From IMG/VR virus record IMGVR_UViG_3300028298_000007, positions 1 through 64,000 of that record: a stretch of 64,000 bases of DNA. One strand, written 5' to 3'. The notes under the pieces were generated by a model. It was not told the DNA's origin, searched no databases, and saw only the letters and a program-made list of their open reading frames with translations. The position numbers and the translations under genes were made by a program. Shown in pieces: positions 3,630-63,521 of this stretch (position 1 is its first letter; each line of letters starts with the position of its first letter). This DNA is from a virus.

Positions 3630-3967
3630 TGGAAAGAGAATATTTCCACGCGACAGTGCAAAGAGTTTCTATTGAAGCAAAAGAAGTCCGCGAAGAAAAA
3701 ATCGCAAGAAGCGGTTTTCTTAATTTAAGAAAGACGATATTCGAGCAGATTCATTTTGAAGATGAGTATTTTATCTTCTGCAAACTCGACAGCACTAATG
3801 TCGTATTGAAGATCAAGACAACAAAAGAAATACTGGAACAGGCGAGAACAGGAGATTCAGTATCTGTTCATCTCAGATTTGATTTTGAATTTGCCTGTTA
3901 TCACTTTATCAAAATTAAAGAAGAAGAAAAGGTTATTCAGGTAGAAAGGAAAATTGTATGCGAATAA
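3629..3967 (+). CDS. hypothetical protein
   Basis: A 112-residue protein of alternating strands and charged segments, with no recognised domain. Its ATG overlaps the previous TAA (TAATG), indicating translational coupling. AAAGGAG lies inside the preceding gene. Confidence 0.65.
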   Translation: MEREYFHATVQRVSIEAKEVREEKIARSGFLNLRKTIFEQIHFEDEYFIFCKLDSTNVVLKIKTTKEILEQARTGDSVSVHLRFDFEFACYHFIKIKEEEKVIQVERKIVCE

Positions 3968-4194
3968 AACTTTTCGTAAAAGACAATAAGATTTGCTACT
4001 CCACAGGGAAGGGGAAGTGGACTGCGCTGCCAAGAGGTAGTGGCGATTTGACTTACCAGTTATCTCCAGCTGAAACAATCTTAGTGGTAAAACATGGCTG
4101 GATTTACGCAGGACAGATCGAAGGCCGGGATATGTCCGGTATAGGCGGACTTAAAACAATCACAGAGGTGATGAAACATGGAAAAGCTAAATAG
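3958..4194 (+). CDS. hypothetical protein
   Basis: A 78-residue protein with a Gly-rich middle (KGKWTALPRGSGDL). Its start overlaps the upstream gene by 10 bases, with GAAAGG upstream. Function unknown; tight packing supports it as a real cistron. Confidence 0.6.
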   Translation: MRIKLFVKDNKICYSTGKGKWTALPRGSGDLTYQLSPAETILVVKHGWIYAGQIEGRDMSGIGGLKTITEVMKHGKAK

Positions 4195-4475: not shown

Positions 4476-4745
4476 ATGTCTAAAATAACAGAAAAGCAAA
4501 TCGGAGTTGTCGGTGTTGACAGCGGAACCTTGCTTCTTGGAGATCCTTGTTACTGGTTATCTGATAAGGATTACGAAAAGGAAGTTTTGAACCCTCACTT
4601 CGATAGGTCAAGACAAATCTGCTACGACTTAGGGCACAAAGGTAAAGGCGTCCTGGTGTCAAGCGGATATGGAGACGGCTGTTATCCTGTTATCGCAAAG
4701 TTTCAAGATGGCAGAGTAAAAGAAGTTACAGTCAAATTCTTTTAA
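4476..4745 (+). CDS. DUF4241-like protein
   Basis: This 89-residue protein has the pattern VGVDSGTLLLGDPCYWL near the N-terminus and SGYGDGCYPV later. This GDP-CY and DGDG-CYPV pair recurs in DUF4241-like proteins of phages and bacteria. Biochemical role unknown. Preceded by TAGGAGGTAAAG. Confidence 0.6.
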   Translation: MSKITEKQIGVVGVDSGTLLLGDPCYWLSDKDYEKEVLNPHFDRSRQICYDLGHKGKGVLVSSGYGDGCYPVIAKFQDGRVKEVTVKFF

Positions 4746-4755
4746 GGAGGTTTAG

Positions 4756-5337
4756 ATGCCTAATTGGTGTGAAAATGATTTAAGAATTACAGGCTCAAAG
4801 AAAGAACTCAAGCGCTTTAAGGCCTTTGCCAAAGGAACAGAAGAAGATGAATTATTGTCTTGTGAAAAATTTATTCCTTATCCGGATAAGTTTAAGAAAC
4901 AAGACGAATTGGCAAATAAGAACGGAAAGTTAAGACAGGATTTAATTGATAAGTTGATTAAAAAAGGAACCCCTGAAGACAAAGCAAGAGAAAAAGCGTT
5001 TAAGGATTTTCCGGCTATCCCAGACGGATTTAATCAAGGCGGTTACGACTGGTGCGTAAAAAACTGGGGAACGAAGTGGGGCTTCTGCGATATTCATCTT
5101 GAAGAAGAAAACCTTAGCGATAAAGAAGATAAGTATAATGAATTTCTTTATTCCTTTAACACTGCCTGGAGCCCGGCAACACCTGTTATACAGAAAATGG
5201 GGGAGATGTTTCCGCTGCTTGAATTTGATCTGCGCTATTTTGAACAAGGCGCTGGATTTAACGGAATTTTCTGGATGAAAGATGGTAAAGTAGAACAGGA
5301 TAAGACAGGAGAGTATTTTGGTAATAGGGGAGGGTAA
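4756..5337 (+). CDS. Api92/YubB ferredoxin-like family protein (DUF1281)
   Basis: This 193-residue protein begins MPNWCENDLRITG, the signature N-terminus of the Api92-like/DUF1281 family found in phages and plasmids. Further family features are YDWCVKNWGTKW and FNTAWSPATPVI in the middle and an aromatic C-terminal domain. The fold is ferredoxin-like; function unknown. The start is fixed by AAGGAGG at 4744-4750. Confidence 0.75.
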   Translation: MPNWCENDLRITGSKKELKRFKAFAKGTEEDELLSCEKFIPYPDKFKKQDELANKNGKLRQDLIDKLIKKGTPEDKAREKAFKDFPAIPDGFNQGGYDWCVKNWGTKWGFCDIHLEEENLSDKEDKYNEFLYSFNTAWSPATPVIQKMGEMFPLLEFDLRYFEQGAGFNGIFWMKDGKVEQDKTGEYFGNRGG

Positions 5338-7401: not shown

Positions 7402-7680
7402 ATGCTGACAGTAGAAAGATTAAAGCGAATTGAACCCAGAACTATCTTTGCCACCGGGACATTTATTGACAATGACTTAGGGTTATTTATGACAGGTAGC
7501 GGTAAAGAACTGCGCTGGGTTGCGGTAAAAGGAAGCAACAATGATTGGTGTATTTACTGCCATTTTGCTACTATGAGTAAAGAATTTATCAGAACTGAGG
7601 GGGATAAGGTTTGCATGGAGCGTAACATTAGAATGTGCATGCCTTGCGATGATGAAGTATTTAAGAGATACCGATATTAA
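7402..7680 (+). CDS. hypothetical protein
   Basis: A 92-residue protein with a beta-rich first half (TIFATGTFIDNDLGLFMTGSGKELRWVAVKG) and several Cys later (CIYC, CMERN, CMPC). It is probably a small globular metal-binding protein of unknown role. GGAAGGAGGTGATATAG precedes the ATG. Confidence 0.6.
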   Translation: MLTVERLKRIEPRTIFATGTFIDNDLGLFMTGSGKELRWVAVKGSNNDWCIYCHFATMSKEFIRTEGDKVCMERNIRMCMPCDDEVFKRYRY

Positions 7681-7689
7681 GGAGAACAT

Positions 7690-7855
7690 ATGATTGATAT
7701 CGCTACATTAAAAGAAGAAGATATTGGCCGGTGGGTGTTATACGATATTGGATATAAAAGAGAGAAAGGCAGGATAAAATATTGGAACTCTATTTATATC
7801 TTCGTTGTTTTTAAATGCGATAGGTGAAGATTTTGAAATAGAATTCGAAGCGTAA
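7690..7855 (+). pseudogene. small hypothetical gene with apparent +1 frameshift
   Basis: A 45-residue frame (7690-7827) ends VFKCDR at a TGA. In the +1 frame the sequence continues IGEDFEIEFEA to a stop at 7853-7855, an acidic end typical of short phage proteins. The break may be an inactivating deletion, a sequencing error or programmed shifting. No slippery heptamer is evident. Confidence 0.4.
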
Positions 7856-7867
7856 AAGGGGGTGAAC

Positions 7868-7996
7868 ATGTTTATAGACGGTATTGCGTTAGGTATAGGT
7901 TTTGGCATAGGCCTGTTTATTATTGCCTGTGTCTTGGCAGCGTTAGTTTGGGCATTGGTAGTATATTTTATTTCAGGGAATGAAGTGCATCCATAA
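7868..7996 (+). CDS. small membrane protein
   Basis: A 42-residue ORF with a long hydrophobic segment (about residues 5-36) including GIGFGIGLFIIACVLAALVWALVVYFI. GGGGGTGA precedes the ATG. Single-pass or hairpin inner-membrane protein; function unknown. Confidence 0.5.
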   Translation: MFIDGIALGIGFGIGLFIIACVLAALVWALVVYFISGNEVHP

Positions 7997-8010
7997 AAAT
8001 AGGAGTTTTC

Positions 8011-8163
8011 ATGGATAAATTTGACGAACAGGGGATGCTGTTTACCGTAGGCGTTGTTATTATTACTTCTATTATCTTATTTTATTTTTACATCAAATCT
8101 AAAAAGAAGGGAGGTTTACATGGCCGCGGAAAAGAAAGAAGAGATAGTAAAGAAATTGACTAA
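8011..8163 (+). CDS. small membrane protein with basic tail
   Basis: A 50-residue ORF with an acidic N-terminus, a transmembrane helix (LFTVGVVIITSIILFYFYI) and a Lys/Arg-rich tail. AGGAG lies upstream. Its end overlaps the next gene by 44 bases. Predicted N-out/C-in by the positive-inside rule. Confidence 0.45.
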   Translation: MDKFDEQGMLFTVGVVIITSIILFYFYIKSKKKGGLHGRGKERRDSKEID

Positions 8164-8281
8164 GAAATTCTATATGAGTATAACTAAGGACTGTATGGAA
8201 TATGCGCCTAAGATCGAAGACGCATTTGAAATAAGAAAAGATATTATCAACAATCTTAAAAAAGTAATTGATAATTCTTAA
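8120..8281 (+). CDS. small hypothetical protein
   Basis: A 53-residue, highly charged, helical protein. The start at 8120 is chosen because AAGGGAGG precedes it; a longer frame from 8054 lacks a site. No motif recognised. Confidence 0.5.
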   Translation: MAAEKKEEIVKKLTKKFYMSITKDCMEYAPKIEDAFEIRKDIINNLKKVIDNS

Positions 8282-8297
8282 AAGGAGGTGAAGCACA

Positions 8298-8480
8298 ATG
8301 AAGAAAGTAATTGAACTCGAGCTCGAATACAGCGGAGAAACAAAGCAGTATCTTATCTTCAAGATAAAAAAAGCGCTAGCTCCGCCACCGTTATTTCCGG
8401 CAAAAATTTATTTGCTGAAAGATTTATTCAAAAAAGAAACTAAGAACATCATGTTAACCATTGAGGAAAAGGAGAATTAA
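8298..8480 (+). CDS. hypothetical protein
   Basis: A 60-residue protein with an N-terminal strand pair (KKVIELELEYSGETKQYLIFKIKKA), a proline-rich turn (APPPLFP) and a basic helix. AAAAGGAGGTGA precedes it. Function unknown. Confidence 0.55.
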   Translation: MKKVIELELEYSGETKQYLIFKIKKALAPPPLFPAKIYLLKDLFKKETKNIMLTIEEKEN

Positions 8481-8481
8481 A

Positions 8482-10059
8482 ATGCAATTACAAACATTAA
8501 AAATAGACCAGATCGCCATAGGCGATAATATAAGGAAAGACATTACCAAAGACTCCGTAGCCAGTCTAATCGAATCGATTAAGGACAAAGGAATATTGCA
8601 GCCGTTATTAGTCAGGGTTAACGGTGGTAAGTTCGACCTGCTGGATGGCTATCGCAGGATCAACGCGGCCAAGTTTGCTGAATTAAAAGAAGTCCCGGCA
8701 ATTATTATCGAAGCCGATAAAGCTGAGCGCGTTGAGTATCAGTTAGTGGCAAATTTGCAACGCAAGGACCTAAACGCAATTGACGAAGCCTTAGCTTATA
8801 AGGCATTAGGCGATGATTTTAAAGTAAAAGACATTATGGTAATCACCGGCCGGCCGGAATACAGGATCCGCAGGATATTAGCGCTGCTTACATTGTGCGA
8901 AGAAGTACGGAACATGATTAAGAATAATGAGGTTTCCGAAGATCATGGTTTCGTATTGACAAGGATATCCAGTCCGAAATTCCAAAAAGCCTTAGCCAAT
9001 GACATCAAGAAATACCGGTATTCTCCAAGCCGCGCTGAAAACGAGTTAAGCCATTATTCCCAGCGACTTGAGACCGCTTGCTTTGATAAAACGCAATGCA
9101 AGGCCTGCACGTTTAACGGCAACCTGATGAAGGATCTTTTTGATAAAGAAAATTCGATGTCCGGACAATGCCTGAACGCCGATTGTTATTTCAAGAAAAT
9201 CGCCGAGTTCCAAAAAGTAAAAGAAGCCGAAATAAAGAAGCAGGGGAAGAAAGTAATAGTGGTCAAGGAAGAGCCTTCTTATGGGACTAAGGAATATGAG
9301 GCAATGAAAGAACTGGTTGATTTTACCGGTTACGAAGCGCAGGGTTTTGACAAAGAACAATTCAATACCGAATGTACCAAGACCTGCCCGACCTTCGCGT
9401 TTATCATAGGTCCTGCCGGCCAGGTTAAACCGGTTTGCTTAAATGCTGATTGTTTCAAACGCGCCTTACGCAAAGCCAAAGCAACGGAAAGAAAAGGAAC
9501 GGCTATGCCTAAGACAGGCGATCCTGAGAAAGACGCCTCTATTCAATACGAGGCCAGGCAGAAAGAAAACCGCGTTGATTTCTTTAAGCGTGATTTCTTC
9601 ATTAAGGGCCTGAAAGAAAACGCTAAAGATATCCAACTTAACAGGATATTGCTGCATCAGTTATTCAGCTTGGAAAGCAGTAACGGCGAAACAATTTCAG
9701 AATTGCTCAAAGCAACTAAGAAGCAGCCGAATTACATGATGAGGAATTTTGAGCGCCTTAATGAATTAAACAACGCTAAACTGATTGAATTGATTAAAAT
9801 CCTTATTCTTAGCCACCTAAACGGTTATTCTACAATTGAATTGCAAAAATTAGGCGAAGAAGCTGGTCTGGATTTAGCTAAGTTTATAATTACCAAAGAA
9901 TACCTGGAGAAATTCTCTAAAGCAGGTTTGCATAAGTTAGCCAACGAATTGAAATTAAAAGTAGGCAGCCTAGTCTGGAAGGATAAGAAAGATGATATAA
10001 TCAAAATCATGCTGGCTTCCGGTTGTAAAGGTAAAGTGCCTAAGGAGATGTTGAAATGA
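8482..10059 (+). CDS. ParB-like nuclease-domain protein with two Cys motifs
   Basis: This is a 525-residue protein. Residues 6-110 match the ParB/Srx fold: IAIGDNIRKD, GILQPLLVR, FDLLDGYRRINAAK, then VANLQRKDLNAIDEALAY. A helix-turn-helix-like segment follows (112-160). Two similar Cys units come next: C206-C209 with C230-C235, and C298-C302 with C319-C324, both ending CLNADC, probably zinc sites. Roles may be DNA partition, CTP-dependent DNA clamping or nicking. The start at 8482 has AAAAGGAG. It opens the replication part of the arm. Confidence 0.8.
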   Translation: MQLQTLKIDQIAIGDNIRKDITKDSVASLIESIKDKGILQPLLVRVNGGKFDLLDGYRRINAAKFAELKEVPAIIIEADKAERVEYQLVANLQRKDLNAIDEALAYKALGDDFKVKDIMVITGRPEYRIRRILALLTLCEEVRNMIKNNEVSEDHGFVLTRISSPKFQKALANDIKKYRYSPSRAENELSHYSQRLETACFDKTQCKACTFNGNLMKDLFDKENSMSGQCLNADCYFKKIAEFQKVKEAEIKKQGKKVIVVKEEPSYGTKEYEAMKELVDFTGYEAQGFDKEQFNTECTKTCPTFAFIIGPAGQVKPVCLNADCFKRALRKAKATERKGTAMPKTGDPEKDASIQYEARQKENRVDFFKRDFFIKGLKENAKDIQLNRILLHQLFSLESSNGETISELLKATKKQPNYMMRNFERLNELNNAKLIELIKILILSHLNGYSTIELQKLGEEAGLDLAKFIITKEYLEKFSKAGLHKLANELKLKVGSLVWKDKKDDIIKIMLASGCKGKVPKEMLK

Positions 10060-11018: not shown

Positions 11019-11216
11019 ATGGTTAATAAAGTAAAGGAAAGGGATCGCAAGGTCGGCGTTATGGTAATGCTTAGCGCCAAAGAAATAGAATTCGTTGACA
11101 GGAAAGTTAAGAAGAATGATCCGGAGAAAAAATCCCGGTCGGCATTGATACAATTACTAATACGCAAATCAATGATTAGGCCGGAATTGTTTGATACCGG
11201 CTGGGAGGGGGCGTAA
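11019..11216 (+). CDS. ribbon-helix-helix-like DNA-binding protein
   Basis: This 65-residue basic protein has a strand (VGVMVMLSAKEIEFVDRKV) and then a helix pair with SRSALIQLLIRKS, the layout of CopG/Arc-type repressors. Such dimers bind short inverted or direct repeats. Its own TAA lies in the first copy of the repeat AACCGTTAC (11215-11223), and a promoter follows at 11257. It is therefore a good candidate to bind these operators and those at 20.07-20.34 kb. The assignment rests on pattern only. Confidence 0.55.
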   Translation: MVNKVKERDRKVGVMVMLSAKEIEFVDRKVKKNDPEKKSRSALIQLLIRKSMIRPELFDTGWEGA

Positions 11217-11240
11217 CCGTTACGGGTGTTATACCGTTAC
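11215..11240. promoter_or_regulatory. operator-like repeats (AACCGTTAC type)
   Basis: Two copies, AACCGTTAC (11215-11223) and TACCGTTAC (11232-11240), are spaced 17 bp start to start. Their reverse complement GTAACGGTW recurs at least six times at 20.07-20.34 kb. They lie just upstream of the extended -10 promoter at 11257-11284. Confidence 0.55.
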
Positions 11241-11256
11241 ACATAAAATAAAACTA

Positions 11257-11284
11257 TTGACAAAAACAAGTTCGGTGATATAGT
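11257..11284 (+). promoter_or_regulatory. extended -10 promoter
   Basis: TTGACA (11257-11262), 16-bp spacer, TATAGT (11279-11284) with TGa directly before. Expected transcription start is near 11291, so the pseudoknot-like RNA is at the 5' end of the transcript. Confidence 0.65.
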
Positions 11285-11290
11285 ATTTAT

Positions 11291-11425
11291 CGTCGAGCAT
11301 GAGAGAATTAACCGGAGCATAATATTATGAAAATTATGGCCCTAAACAGAAACGGATCAATCATTCCGATTTATCCGGCTAATTCTCTCAATATTACTTG
11401 TTCTGTTTAGGGCCTGCTTTATTTT
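11291..11425 (+). ncRNA. pseudoknot-like structured RNA with terminator/attenuator
   Basis: Two long interleaved pairings are visible. Arm A (11301-11315) pairs with A' (11375-11389): 14 of 15 bp with one A-C mismatch. Arm B (11338-11351) pairs perfectly over 14 bp with B' (11401-11414). The order A-B-A'-B' is that of a pseudoknot or of competing folds. B/B' is followed by TGCTTTATTTT, so it can act as a terminator. A smaller hairpin CGGA/TCCG lies between B and A'. It has its own promoter and precedes the helicase operon, which suggests an attenuator or a free small RNA. Confidence 0.6.
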
Positions 11426-11438
11426 AAAAGGAATTATA

Positions 11439-11627
11439 ATGTCTAAAGATAATGAAGATAAGAATAAAATTATTTCTACTACTGCTACAAACAAGACATT
11501 CGAATATCTAAAGGGTAATGTTAATTTAAAATTTATATTAAGAGTAGATATAAAAGATGATTTGAAGGATTTCTTAGATATATTAAAGAAATCATGCGAA
11601 GACTTAGAAAAAGAAATATTAAAATAA
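11439..11627 (+). CDS. small hypothetical protein
   Basis: A 62-residue acidic/basic helical protein, first cistron after the structured RNA, with AAAAGGAA upstream. The last part (DDLKDFLDILKKSCEDLEKEIL) is an amphipathic helix. Function unknown. Confidence 0.55.
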   Translation: MSKDNEDKNKIISTTATNKTFEYLKGNVNLKFILRVDIKDDLKDFLDILKKSCEDLEKEILK

Positions 11628-11639
11628 ATAAGGAGTATT

Positions 11640-13256
11640 ATGTTTGTTTATACTGACACCGATTTTGCAATCGTAAAATGCGAATTTAAGGAAAAAGAAT
11701 TAGTAAAGGCAATAGGCGATTTTAAATTTGACAAAGTACACTCCACCTGGTTATTTCCGCTGCGTAAACTTGTTGACATCATTGATAACCTGAATATCGG
11801 TTATACTCCCGAAACAAAAATTATCTACGACCATCTAGTTCAAGAAAAACAGAAATATCATTCTCTAATTAATAAGGCAGATCGCATTAAGCAAGGCGAA
11901 GGCGAATGGGATATTTTAGATCAAAATAAAATATCCCTTTTGACTCAATGTTATCATCACCAAAAACAGGCGATCCTTTTAGGCACATTATTCGATTCCT
12001 ATGCTTTCTTCATGGAAACCGGAACAGGTAAAACATTAGTCGCGATAAAATTAATTGATTTCTGGAAAGTGCCGGCAATGGTAATATGCCCGCTATCCAC
12101 AATAGAAACGGTATGGAAGAAAGAAATCGAAAAATGGTCTAACTTAAATTCAGTTATACTATGGCAGAATTTAAAGGCCTTCGATTACGATTATAATGTT
12201 TACCTTATTAATTACGAACAATTTAAAATCCTATCCAGTAAAACCGATATAACAAAAAGAATACAATGCTTGATTATTGATGAAAGTTCTAAATTAAAAA
12301 ATCCTAAATCCCAGATTACCAAGACCATACTTAAATATAAAAATTCAATTCCACATAGGCTATGCTTAACCGGAACTCCTGCTCCGAACAATTTGCTTGA
12401 ATACCATAGCCAGATGTCTTTTATAAATTCCGATTTGCTTGGCGATAATTACTATCGCTTCCGCAACACCTTCTTTTATTCCTGCGGTTACGGCGGTTAT
12501 TTATACCGGCCGATGAAAGGCGCCCAAGAAGCAATCATTGATAGGGTTAGCCGGCAGGCATTCAGTATCCGTAAAGATGACTGTTTGGACCTACCGGATC
12601 GCGTATATGAAACGCGCCTAGTTTATATGGATGATGTCCAGCAGAAGGCCTACGATATGATGAGGAAAGAAAACATATTGGAATTCGGCGATAGCGTAAC
12701 CTTGGCCGCGAATGAACTGGCTAAAATTATGAAACTGCGCCAGGTTACTAGCGGTTTTACAATTAATAATAAAGGAATCCCGGTACTTATTTCAGATACT
12801 AAGATCAATGCGCTCAAGGACCTATTGGAAGAAATACCCGAAGACAAGCAAGTTATAATCTGGCTGAATTTTCATTTTGAAATCAACCGATTAAAGGAAG
12901 AATTTAAGGATACTGCTTGCACATTATACGGCGATATGCCCCAGAAAGAAAAAACAAAAAGCATAGAGGATTTCCAAATAGGAAAATACCGCATATTGCT
13001 AGCGCATCCTTTATCCGGCGGCCTAGGGCTTACTTTTGTCAACTGCTCATACATGATTTGGTTTTCACTTTCTTATTCTTCAGAACAACATTCACAGGCA
13101 AACGACAGAAATTATCGCATAGGACAAAAAAATAAATGCACTTATTTTTATCTTTTAACAAAGAATTCTATCGATGAAATAATATATAAAGTCTTAACAC
13201 ATAAGATCAATATTATGGAAGAATGTTTAAATTTACTAAAAGGCATAAATGTTTAA
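11640..13256 (+). CDS. SNF2-family DNA helicase/translocase
   Basis: This is a 538-residue superfamily 2 ATPase. The Walker A motif is ETGTGKT (126-132), motif II is IIDESS (212-217, a DEAH variant) and motif III is LTGTPAPN (243-250). In the C-terminal RecA-like domain motif VI reads NDRNYRIGQ. Phage SNF2 proteins remodel or branch-migrate DNA in replication and recombination. The last ~70 codons are more AT-rich than the rest and end just at the HNH gene. A second copy of the C-terminal coding sequence lies after that gene, so the present 3' end was probably imported. Confidence 0.9.
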   Translation: MFVYTDTDFAIVKCEFKEKELVKAIGDFKFDKVHSTWLFPLRKLVDIIDNLNIGYTPETKIIYDHLVQEKQKYHSLINKADRIKQGEGEWDILDQNKISLLTQCYHHQKQAILLGTLFDSYAFFMETGTGKTLVAIKLIDFWKVPAMVICPLSTIETVWKKEIEKWSNLNSVILWQNLKAFDYDYNVYLINYEQFKILSSKTDITKRIQCLIIDESSKLKNPKSQITKTILKYKNSIPHRLCLTGTPAPNNLLEYHSQMSFINSDLLGDNYYRFRNTFFYSCGYGGYLYRPMKGAQEAIIDRVSRQAFSIRKDDCLDLPDRVYETRLVYMDDVQQKAYDMMRKENILEFGDSVTLAANELAKIMKLRQVTSGFTINNKGIPVLISDTKINALKDLLEEIPEDKQVIIWLNFHFEINRLKEEFKDTACTLYGDMPQKEKTKSIEDFQIGKYRILLAHPLSGGLGLTFVNCSYMIWFSLSYSSEQHSQANDRNYRIGQKNKCTYFYLLTKNSIDEIIYKVLTHKINIMEECLNLLKGINV

Positions 13257-13743
13257 TCAAAAAAAATATCTTAAAAAATATAGTAAGACATATCGTATAA
13301 AATTTAAAGATAAAATTCGTAAGAAACAACAAAAATATTATCTTAATAAGAAAAAAAGTATAAATAAAAGGAATAAAAAATACTGGAAGAAAAATAGGGA
13401 CAAATTAATTTTAAATAAGAAAAAAGATCGTAATAGAGTTTTAAAAACTTGGGAAGGTTATCTCCCTAAAAAAACTAATTGTCCAATTTGTAAAAAAGAG
13501 ATATTTTTTAATAAAAGAAATAAAAAAAATGCTATTCATTTTGACCATAAAGATAATAAAAAGATTTTAATTAAAGAAGGGCCTACTACTTGGTTAATGT
13601 CTCATGTAAGAAATTCTACTAATCAAAAAATCTGGAAATTATGTAAATTCGGGATGCTTTGTGGAAGATGCAATGGATATCTTCCTACCAAAAGCAGAAA
13701 ACAATTTGTAATGAGAATAATTAAATATGTTTTCAATCTATAA
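13249..13743 (+). CDS. HNH/endonuclease VII-like homing endonuclease
   Basis: A 164-residue, extremely Lys-rich protein. Residues 1-65 are repeated basic-aromatic helices like those before endonuclease VII domains in phages. The C-terminal part has CPIC, then HFDHKDNK and GMLCGRCNGYLP, a zinc-stabilised beta-beta-alpha metal nuclease. It overlaps the helicase end by 8 bases and is far more AT-rich than the surroundings. It sits between the helicase and a displaced helicase C-terminus, the classic arrangement of an intronless homing gene that restores its target. Confidence 0.8.
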   Translation: MFNQKKYLKKYSKTYRIKFKDKIRKKQQKYYLNKKKSINKRNKKYWKKNRDKLILNKKKDRNRVLKTWEGYLPKKTNCPICKKEIFFNKRNKKNAIHFDHKDNKKILIKEGPTTWLMSHVRNSTNQKIWKLCKFGMLCGRCNGYLPTKSRKQFVMRIIKYVFNL

Positions 13744-19897: not shown

Positions 19898-20072
19898 TGC
19901 AGAATTAAGAAAACAATTTATTAAAAATCAAAATAAAACAACTATTAAAATCCCCACCGAGGGGGAAAAAACGAAATCGGCCATAACGGATCGTGAATCG
20001 TATGTTTACCGCAGAAGATCAATGAAATTTGAGCAAAAACGGTATGGCCGGGTAAAATATCGAATTTCGTAA
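19890..20072 (+). CDS. small basic protein
   Basis: A 60-residue, Lys/Arg-rich protein whose ATG lies in the last codons of the primase gene. The end (RRRSMKFEQKRYGRVKYRIS) is strongly basic, suggesting DNA binding. Its stop lies in the first repeat of the GTAACGGTT array, so it might be the array's ligand or its expression may be affected by it. Confidence 0.5.
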   Translation: MSNAELRKQFIKNQNKTTIKIPTEGEKTKSAITDRESYVYRRRSMKFEQKRYGRVKYRIS

Positions 20073-20336
20073 CGGTTTGCGTAACGGTTATGTTTTTCGT
20101 TATATTGCAATGAGTTAAGTAAGTTATCCACAGGATATTAACAACCGTTATACTATGTGTCCAAAATATATAATAATTATTTTTTTGGGTTTTCATCAGT
20201 TTTAAGGGGATAAAATGATAAATTCATTAAAAAATATATTCTTTGCGCCTTTTCGAATATGGTATAACGGTTTCGTAACTCATTGAAATTACTATACATT
20301 CTTTGTGTTACGATATAATGTAACGGTATAACGGTA
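20069..20336. repeat. iteron/operator array with a perfect DnaA box (candidate replication origin)
   Basis: Copies of (G/A)TAACGGT(T/A) occur at 20069-20077, 20081-20089, 20143-20151 (inverted), 20264-20272, 20320-20328 and 20328-20336. A perfect DnaA box TTATCCACA is at 20124-20132, and an AT-rich tract with ATATATAATAATTATTTTTTT lies near 20166-20186. No gene is seen in 20073-20393. The location just after the primase-helicase supports an origin; the alternative is an operator set, since a TATAAT (20314-20319) is embedded among the last copies. Confidence 0.55.
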
Positions 20337-61789: not shown

Positions 61790-62137
61790 TTAAGCGCTTC
61801 TTATCACAGCCAAGATGTCCTCATCCTTAATCAAGAACAATTGCCTGTCCTTTTGGCCGGGTATTTTAGATACCTCTATTATTTCGGTGTAAGAATATTT
61901 GGAAAACAGCACAATATCGCCGCTGGTTATCTTAAATTTGATATCACTATCGCCAGCCACCGCGATGACCCGGCCCTTGGTCGGCGCCTTAGGCTTAGTC
62001 TGGCCGGGTAAACTTACCGCGCTGTCATCCCCCGGGATAATTATGCCTCCTGGAGTCTTTTGTTCCTTAGTCTTGGTGTCTTCAGGCTCAACCAGCACCC
62101 TCTTATTTAACGGATCCACTATATTCATCCTTTTCAA
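61790..62137 (-). CDS. groES: GroES-like co-chaperonin
   Basis: A 115-residue protein with NKRVLVEPEDTKTKEQKTPGGIIIPGD (mobile loop), KGRVIAVAGDSD, ITSGDIVLFSKYSYTEI and LIKDEDILAVI, matching Cpn10 throughout. It is about 18 residues longer than GroES, with extra residues in the roof-loop region (AVSLPGQTKPKAP). Phages use such proteins (as T4 gp31) to fit capsid or tail proteins into GroEL. TTG at 62137 or ATG at 62128 may be the start. Confidence 0.88.
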   Translation of the reverse strand: MKRMNIVDPLNKRVLVEPEDTKTKEQKTPGGIIIPGDDSAVSLPGQTKPKAPTKGRVIAVAGDSDIKFKITSGDIVLFSKYSYTEIIEVSKIPGQKDRQLFLIKDEDILAVIRSA

Positions 62138-62751
62138 ATTCCATTAGATTCGACAGGCGTATTTTCAGCCTGATTTTTCTTCTTTCTGCCACCTCTTGCA
62201 CCGTAATATCTCGCTGAATAGCAGGTAAGAATTTTCATAATATCCTCTGCTAATTCTTCTTCGTATTTCTTTTCTTTGGTTTCCATTATCTCAACTTCAA
62301 TTTCAAGATTTGTAAAAATTGCATCAAGATATTCATATCCAAATCGGGCAAGTCTATCTTTGTATTCAATCAGCACCCGTTCAACTTTACCCTCAAAGCA
62401 CATCTTGATTAACTTGTGTATGCCATTTCGTTTTTCGTTTATTCCGCTGGCAATCTCGTCAATCAAAACATACTTGTAGCCTTTGGCTTCTGCGTGTTTC
62501 CGTAACCTGTCTTTCTGCCGTTCAAGATTCTCTTTCTGTTTTGCCGTTGAACATCTTGCGTAAATCACAGTCAACTTTTCTTGCTTCTCTTTCTCGACTC
62601 CCATATAAGCGTCTAAGTCTTCCTGACGGAAACGCCGATGCTCACCAGTAGTCTTGAAAGACTTTATCTTTCCGTTGTTGGCAAGCGTCTTGAGAGTGTT
62701 TATTGACACCCCAAGATAACCGCTTGCTTCTGTAATTTTATAGATTTTCAT
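62134..62751 (-). CDS. IS607-family serine recombinase (TnpA-like)
   Basis: A 205-residue protein. It has an N-terminal MerR-like HTH (YKITEASGYLGVSINTLKTLANNGKI), then a serine-resolvase domain with VIYARCSTAKQKENLERQ (catalytic Ser), LIDEIASGINEKRNGIHKLIKMC and VLIEYKDRLARFGYEYL. This is the IS607 transposase layout. No TnpB is nearby, so it is an orphan or a domesticated recombinase. It overlaps both GroES and the PP-loop gene. Confidence 0.85.
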   Translation of the reverse strand: MKIYKITEASGYLGVSINTLKTLANNGKIKSFKTTGEHRRFRQEDLDAYMGVEKEKQEKLTVIYARCSTAKQKENLERQKDRLRKHAEAKGYKYVLIDEIASGINEKRNGIHKLIKMCFEGKVERVLIEYKDRLARFGYEYLDAIFTNLEIEVEIMETKEKKYEEELAEDIMKILTCYSARYYGARGGRKKKNQAENTPVESNGI

Positions 62752-63521
62752 GCGATACTCGAACAAATGCCGATACACTCTGTTTCTTTTTCATCATCCG
62801 TATCGTAATATGATGACAACTCCCCCCGTTCTATCCGCCCACGAAACGCCTCAAGAGTTTCATCTTTGAAGAATGAAATATCTTTACCAAGATATTCTCT
62901 CATTTCCCGTTCTACTCGTTCTCGTTCTGCATAGACTTCTGGTAATTTCTCATAAAGAAGTTTCCAATGTTTTTTCCCTGCACGAACGCACCCCCCAGAA
63001 CAATTGTTATGCAGGAATCCCAATCTGTAGAGGAGTGGTTCTTGAATGTTTGCAGCCTTCAGGAAGTCGTCAATCTGCTGTTTTGTTGTGTTCTCTCTGA
63101 TAAGTGGAAATGTCAACTTCGGCCATTTTCCAGTTCTTACAGCAACCGTTTGATAAACTCCGACAATTCTGTTTGCTCTATGTGGTTCATCAGCACCAAT
63201 ACCAAATACAAGCGTATCTCCATCTTTGTAGAACTTTTGCAGTCGTTCTGCTTTTAGGATTCGAGAGCAAAAAGGCATACGATTATTTGCCAAAGCATTG
63301 TTGTTATAAAACAATGCCTCTGGACTTCTTCCATCCGAATCGAAAGTGATGGGGTGATTAAAATGTTTTGAAAGGTCATCAAGGAAACGATATAGGTCTG
63401 CGTGTTCCCATTTTGTATCATTGAAATACAAGATGACCTCTTCTTTTGGATACTGCTTCAATGCCCAGTCTGCACACCAAGCCGAAGCCTTTCCGCCACT
63501 AATTGCTACTATCACACTCAT
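62748..63521 (-). CDS. PAPS reductase-like PP-loop protein
   Basis: A 257-residue protein with VAISGGKASAWCADWA (SGGxxS PP-loop), LYFNDTKWEHADLYRFL (typical of the PAPS reductase/DndC family), CSRILK and FLHNNCSGGCVRAGKKHW. It should bind ATP and activate or transfer sulfur. Phages carry such genes near DNA modification loci; the substrate is unknown. Confidence 0.75.
   Translation of the reverse strand: MSVIVAISGGKASAWCADWALKQYPKEEVILYFNDTKWEHADLYRFLDDLSKHFNHPITFDSDGRSPEALFYNNNALANNRMPFCSRILKAERLQKFYKDGDTLVFGIGADEPHRANRIVGVYQTVAVRTGKWPKLTFPLIRENTTKQQIDDFLKAANIQEPLLYRLGFLHNNCSGGCVRAGKKHWKLLYEKLPEVYAERERVEREMREYLGKDISFFKDETLEAFRGRIERGELSSYYDTDDEKETECIGICSSIA

Follow-up and report, generated by a model that had tools for sequence, protein, structure and literature searches.

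Genes and promoter at the locus

The window, i.e., the whole stretch of DNA analysed here (64,000 nt), covers most of a 64,751-base viral record (IMG/VR IMGVR_UViG_3300028298_000007) from an uncultured tailed phage, whose genes include those for terminase, portal, and head. The element described below lies between a 65-aa ORF (11019–11216) and a 62-aa ORF (11439–11627), and the features of this region are as follows.

11019–11216, plus strand: small basic 65-aa protein, just upstream of the promoter, conserved in 7/7 phages
11216–11223 and 11233–11240, plus strand: two operator-like boxes, ACCGTTAC, upstream of the promoter
11257–11284, plus strand: extended −10 promoter (TTGACA at 11257–11262, 16-nt spacer, TG at 11276–11277, TATAGT at 11279–11284)
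11300–11316, plus strand: arm A (5′ strand of helix 1), which covaries with A′ in L063
11327–11410, plus strand: 27-codon frame within the element, MKIMALNRNGSIIPIYPANSLNITCSV, probably incidental
11338–11351, plus strand: arm B (5′ strand of helix 2), which pairs with B′
11353–11368, plus strand: small hairpin between B and A′ (CGGA/TCCG, 8-nt loop, −4.9 kcal/mol)
11374–11390, plus strand: arm A′ (3′ strand of helix 1), which pairs with A
11401–11414, plus strand: arm B′ (3′ strand of helix 2), which pairs with B
11415–11425, plus strand: U-rich tail, TGCTTTATTTT, T at 8/11 positions, followed by the Shine-Dalgarno sequence AAAAGGA of the next gene
11439–11627, plus strand: 62-aa ORF, the first downstream gene, without conservation in relatives
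11640–13256, plus strand: SNF2-like helicase (Pfam SNF2-rel_dom, 3.5e-30; PHROG 62), the operon's conserved gene

The extended −10 promoter proposed in an earlier sequence-only reading is located as that reading had it and is near-consensus, with its hexamers matching at 11/12 positions, and it tops the 19 promoter-like sites found in 8–14 kb. Its spacing would place the transcription start at ~11291, and arm A begins 9 nt downstream of this predicted start. The operator-like boxes belong to a motif, ACCGTTAY, that occurs 13 times in the window (2.3 expected) and adjoins the corresponding promoter in each of the six relatives introduced below except L003. At 20069–20335, beside the primase gene, six such boxes lie around a perfect DnaA box (TTATCCACA, 20125–20133), and this cluster is a candidate replication origin. 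Both box clusters are present in several relatives, and because the boxes are common to promoter and candidate origin, the promoter seems wired to replication control. The 65-aa protein encoded beside the promoter is a candidate repressor and may be the regulator that binds these boxes. It had no match in Pfam or PDB and no profile confirmed a family for it, while a structure model (pLDDT 67) weakly suggests a beta-alpha-alpha shape.

Downstream, an Endonuclease VII/HNH-like ORF (13249–13743) overlaps the 3′ end of the helicase gene, which is the gene interrupted in the relative L009, where an HNH-endonuclease-like ORF (8366–8938, within 7560–9734) splits it into two ORFs. An IS607-like serine recombinase/transposase (PHROG 6620) lies on the minus strand at 62134–62778.

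Two long interleaved pairings

The element (11300–11414) consists of two long arm pairs in the order A-B-A′-B′. Both of these pairings, first noticed from the sequence as interleaved arms of about 14 bp each, are real and covary in relatives; the estimated length holds for B/B′, where 14/14 positions are paired, while A/A′ is slightly longer, at 17 nt with 16 paired and a single A·C mismatch. The U-rich run reported after B/B′ is likewise present, and the tail together with the Shine-Dalgarno sequence is homologous to that of the relative L017.

In the 148-nt leader, the best interleaved stem pair has a stacking energy of −56.0 kcal/mol; shuffles averaged −22.7 (sd 2.9), and 0/300 reached it. 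A strict search over the whole window found this single place, and both arms reached at least 13 pairs in 0/20 Markov-shuffled windows. When 373 kb (the window plus six relatives, both strands) were scanned, the element and two syntenic counterparts ranked top at −52 or better, while an order-2 Markov sequence equal in length to eight windows gave a best interleaved pair of only −46.5. The idea that chance inverted repeats produce the pairing has nothing in its favour except the small number of relatives; against it stand the 0/300 shuffles in each of three phages, the same slot in all of them, and the compensatory changes described below, and we consider it refuted for practical purposes. A DNA cruciform was also considered and rejected, as interleaved repeats are unable both to extrude and the sequence divergence points to RNA. 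Evidence on the strand from G-U pairs is mixed, with the A stem slightly favouring the minus strand in two phages and the B stem the plus strand.

Relatives carrying or missing the element

Relatives were retrieved from IMG/VR with helicase, ParB-like, and RNase H queries and alignments, yielding, with the window, seven related phages. The six relatives are L002, L063, L017, L009, L010 (eleven contigs of one phage, identical at this site where compared), and L003, which is more distant. All but L003 share the gene order parB-like, RNase H, 72–77-aa ORF, 61–67-aa ORF, promoter, and helicase operon; in L003, recognition was limited to the small ORF and the helicase. The syntenic promoter is an exact match to TTGACA-16-TATANT...TATCGTCGAG in L002 and reads TTGACA-16-TAGAAT in L063 and TTGACA-16-TAAGAT in L017.

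Of the six relatives, two have the topology of the element at the corresponding place in the gene order, with largely different letters, and 0/300 shuffles reached either:

L063, following the syntenic promoter: A 3815–3831 with A′ 3905–3921; B 3862–3878 with B′ 3924–3940
L017, following the syntenic promoter: A 7542–7559 with A′ 7607–7624; B 7564–7575 with B′ 7625–7636

The order A-B-hairpin-A′-B′ is thus kept in three phages, with the conserved upstream gene and promoter before it and the helicase operon after it; these carriers are three distinct sequences only. In L009, L010, and L003, no element was found at the site or elsewhere in the sequence fetched, from records that are possibly incomplete. 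L002 has weak interleaved arms, but these were matched by 50/300 shuffles, and it was left out of the count. Since these four phages are without it, the element is not essential to helicase expression.

Searches for known families agreed with the sequence-only reading, which recognised none. Rfam 15 gave no match at the gathering score in the window, L002, or L003, and only chance-level matches at E≤10 for the elements of the window, L063, and L017. BLAST of the element against phage records returned only chance matches of 22–47 nt, and the neighbouring proteins had no close relatives in phage and plasmid collections. An IMG/VR scan for the operator-promoter pattern yielded 55 stretches, among which the neighbourhood or element occurred only in phages already known. 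Structured RNAs are mostly recognised through conserved letters. Sequence-based libraries miss this element because most of its letters have changed and it is the order of pairing that persists.

Other structures were seen in these genomes. L063 carries a tRNA-like element at 3950–4042, with a 7-bp acceptor (GGGGCAG/CTGCCCC), a canonical T arm with the loop TTCGAAT, and no D arm, which was not called by ARAGORN, and the same genome has repeated self-pairing GCUUUCUGCAGAAGGC units (L117, 7383–7524). In L002, a structured stretch between small ORFs (4640–4770) is closed by the helix GAGTAGT/ACTACTC (z −2.7) and has no Rfam match.

Covariation in both helices

In a structure-blind MAFFT alignment of the window with L063, read column for column, the 17 pairs of A/A′ comprise 8 unchanged, 6 double-changed, 2 lost, and 1 gained; the double changes, from window to L063, are T-A to C-G, G-C to C-G, A-T to G-C, C-G to T-A, and, twice, G-C to A-T. 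Because the whole-element MAFFT alignments (three and two rows) misalign B′, changes in B/B′ were counted on the arms only, in a manual alignment with the CCC of B aligned. This gave at least four double changes (G-C to A-T, G-C to T-A, A-T to G-C, and A-T to T-A) plus one pair deleted on both strands, and alternative placements raise the double changes to as many as seven. Compared with the window, L017 shows the concerted loss of two pairs, and an A-T of the window corresponds to a G-C there. The window and L017 align better than any of 500 shuffles, while 5/500 shuffles align as well as L063 does with the window.

Compensatory changes in both helices indicate that both are selected, and selection on the fold itself is almost certain. 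The sequence-only reading had named an arm failing to covary in relatives as the result that would speak against it; across the three sequences, with B aligned manually, neither arm fails. Interleaved helices that are both under selection, as the covariation and the shuffles (0/300) indicate, are what an H-type pseudoknot would show.

A probable pseudoknot rather than exclusive folds

In none of the three phages do A, B, A′, and B′ share bases, and the linkers leave space for both helices. Estimated pseudoknot energies, summed from duplexes, hairpin, and a generic pseudoknot penalty without a 3D model, are −46, −45, and −53 kcal/mol for the window, L063, and L017, against nested optima of −34.2, −38.7, and −45.9, so that by this rough sum both helices together are favoured by ~7–12 kcal/mol in all three. 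The hairpin between B and A′ recurs (L063 −8.1, L017 −12.0 kcal/mol). Folds of the growing chain form A/A′ first, complete by ~11392, with B/B′ competitive only past 11416. The linkers are tightest in L017 (4 nt from A to B, 0 nt at the A′-B′ junction), which implies helices side by side, a sharp bend, or some unpairing or fraying. We read the element as a pseudoknot because its arms do not overlap and the energies favour both helices; this is the simplest reading, and we infer simultaneous formation from these models. A stable pseudoknot was one of two readings originally offered and is the better one on these grounds, whereas the other, an attenuator, finds weak support.

In the attenuator, B/B′ would be an intrinsic terminator delayed by the earlier A/A′, with read-through into the operon tuned by folding kinetics. 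Among nested folds, A/A′ is indeed the best once the chain reaches 11392 and stays so until B′ has been completed; on their own, the folds with A/A′ and with B/B′ have near-equal energies (−34.0/−34.2 in the window, −45.4/−45.9 in L017); and in these two phages, B′ is followed by a U-rich tail. However, the T-tail scores after B′ are low (2.13 in the window, 2.21 in L063, and 1.67 in L017; 1.7–2.4 overall), the hairpin loop would be ~50 nt, L063 has AUAUUUAUGGGG instead of a U-run, and a terminator scan, limited to loops of 3–8 nt, was negative at B′ in all three phages. The GC-rich hairpin and strong U-tract of an intrinsic terminator are not seen, nor, in the three phages, are mutually exclusive helices with a common arm; with no shared bases, mutual exclusion would rest on topology alone. 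We consider the attenuator doubtful, with partial termination possible and efficient termination unlikely. To a similar degree, we doubt a trans-acting small RNA of ~125–150 nt, partly released from the leader by weak termination (window and L017) or by processing at the tRNA-like structure after B′ (L063) and targeting the host or another transcript. The self-contained fold, its own promoter, the varied downstream genes, and presence or absence as a unit speak for it, as do the 7-bp acceptor stem and canonical T arm that start 10 nt after B′ in L063, and IsrK of Gifsy-1 is a phage RNA serving as both sRNA and leader (PMC4825925). Yet the element lacks a good terminator and a conserved unpaired stretch usable as a seed, and in L017 only 20 nt separate B′ from the helicase start codon, an interval in which no promoter was found, so that the element there would be the helicase 5′UTR, barring upstream read-through; a small RNA is possible only as a partial product.

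By analogy with T4 gp32, the helicase or a single-strand binding protein could bind the pseudoknot and repress its own operon, as a leader pseudoknot before a replication gene, diverged in sequence and absent in some relatives, follows the pattern of T4-like gene 32 (PMC535899). The first gene nevertheless differs among the phages (62-aa ORF, helicase, 79-aa ORF) and the helices are far longer than those of the ~28-nt T4 pseudoknot, and we think such an autogenous operator distinctly unlikely. Less probable still is leader-peptide control, in which ribosomes on the internal frame (11327–11410) would open the arms: each of the three phages has a frame running across the element (27, 34, and 35 codons) and GGAG in arm A lies 9 nt before the window's ATG, but L063 and L017 have no Shine-Dalgarno sequence, and the starts are not aligned. 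The concerted one-pair loss also shifts the frame in B′, which argues that the RNA is kept rather than the peptide, and a conserved leader peptide was rejected because the frame is lost through B′ between relatives.

Proposed action of the leader

Our preferred reading, held tentatively at a probability of about 0.45, is that the element is the pseudoknotted 5′ leader of an early replication-helicase operon, acting in cis through its fold. Both the transcript and an effect on expression are assumed in what follows. RNA polymerase would start at ~11291, and A/A′ would close first on the emerging chain, holding B and the small hairpin in its loop. B′ would next pair with B, giving two interlocked helices, each of more than one turn, and the interlock would sit right behind the polymerase, ~20–25 nt before the next start codon. 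The action is most likely in cis and via shape rather than sequence: the folded block near the 5′ end may set the amount of usable operon mRNA, possibly with the polymerase slowed or partly released at the U-rich tail, or with the 5′ end protected or occluded. Against this leader stand a first downstream gene that is different in each phage, the four relatives that manage without it, the tight L017 linkers, and the mixed G-U evidence. A further reading, which we think rather unlikely, is a class of phage leader RNAs conserved in topology only, where helix 2, threaded through the helix 1 loop behind the polymerase, needs no sequence-specific partner and acts mechanically on elongation or on decay from the 5′ end.

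Altogether, the element is real, conserved in structure, and absent from Rfam, and a pseudoknotted leader RNA of a phage describes it best. It is placed where the phage would decide the expression level of its replication operon, and, if it acts mechanically, it could offer a clean, small system for the effects of interlocking folds on elongation, termination, and mRNA life.

Comparison with known systems

The control systems of the plasmids pMV158 (CopG/antisense RNA) and pIP501 (CopR/RNAIII) likewise place the gene of a small DNA-binding protein and a regulatory RNA before a replication gene (PMC4485353, PMC4981023). In contrast, no conserved antisense promoter was found in the three phages, and the protein family is unconfirmed here.

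HDV-like ribozymes have the order helix 1, helix 2, hairpin, helix 1′, helix 2′, with a first helix of ~7 bp. The element shares this order, but its helix 1 has 17–18 bp, and it has no P4 or catalytic junction and no Rfam match; its A′-B′ junctions of 10, 2, and 0 nt (window, L063, and L017) do not correspond to an HDV-like P1 with J4/2. Another comparison is with the c4 antisense RNA (Rfam RF01695). Like c4 of phages P1 and P7 (PMC12197685), the element is an RNA with pairing segments and, as between heteroimmune phages, fast divergence. It differs in having no Rfam match even at E≤10 and long arms that pair in cis, and, unlike c4, its A-B half alone has no stable fold.

In satellite phage P4, leader RNA pairing controls replication genes (summarised in PMC4825925). 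The element resembles the P4 leader/CI RNA as an untranslated replication-operon leader with long complementary segments and possible premature termination; in P4, one antisense RNA pairs with seqA and seqC, whereas here there are two independent pairs and no antisense RNA is evident. The likenesses to P4 and to T4 gene 32 are comparison rather than membership, as the length of the arms, the way they pair, and the gene downstream are all different. The T4 pseudoknot measures ~28 nt; the element spans 115 nt, its arms are 17 and 14 nt long, and its downstream gene varies. Even so, the T4 gene 32 leader is the closest in logic: it too precedes a phage replication gene and has a pseudoknot toward its 5′ side, the structure of which is kept between T4 and RB69 while the sequence has diverged, and which RB49 is without (PMC535899).
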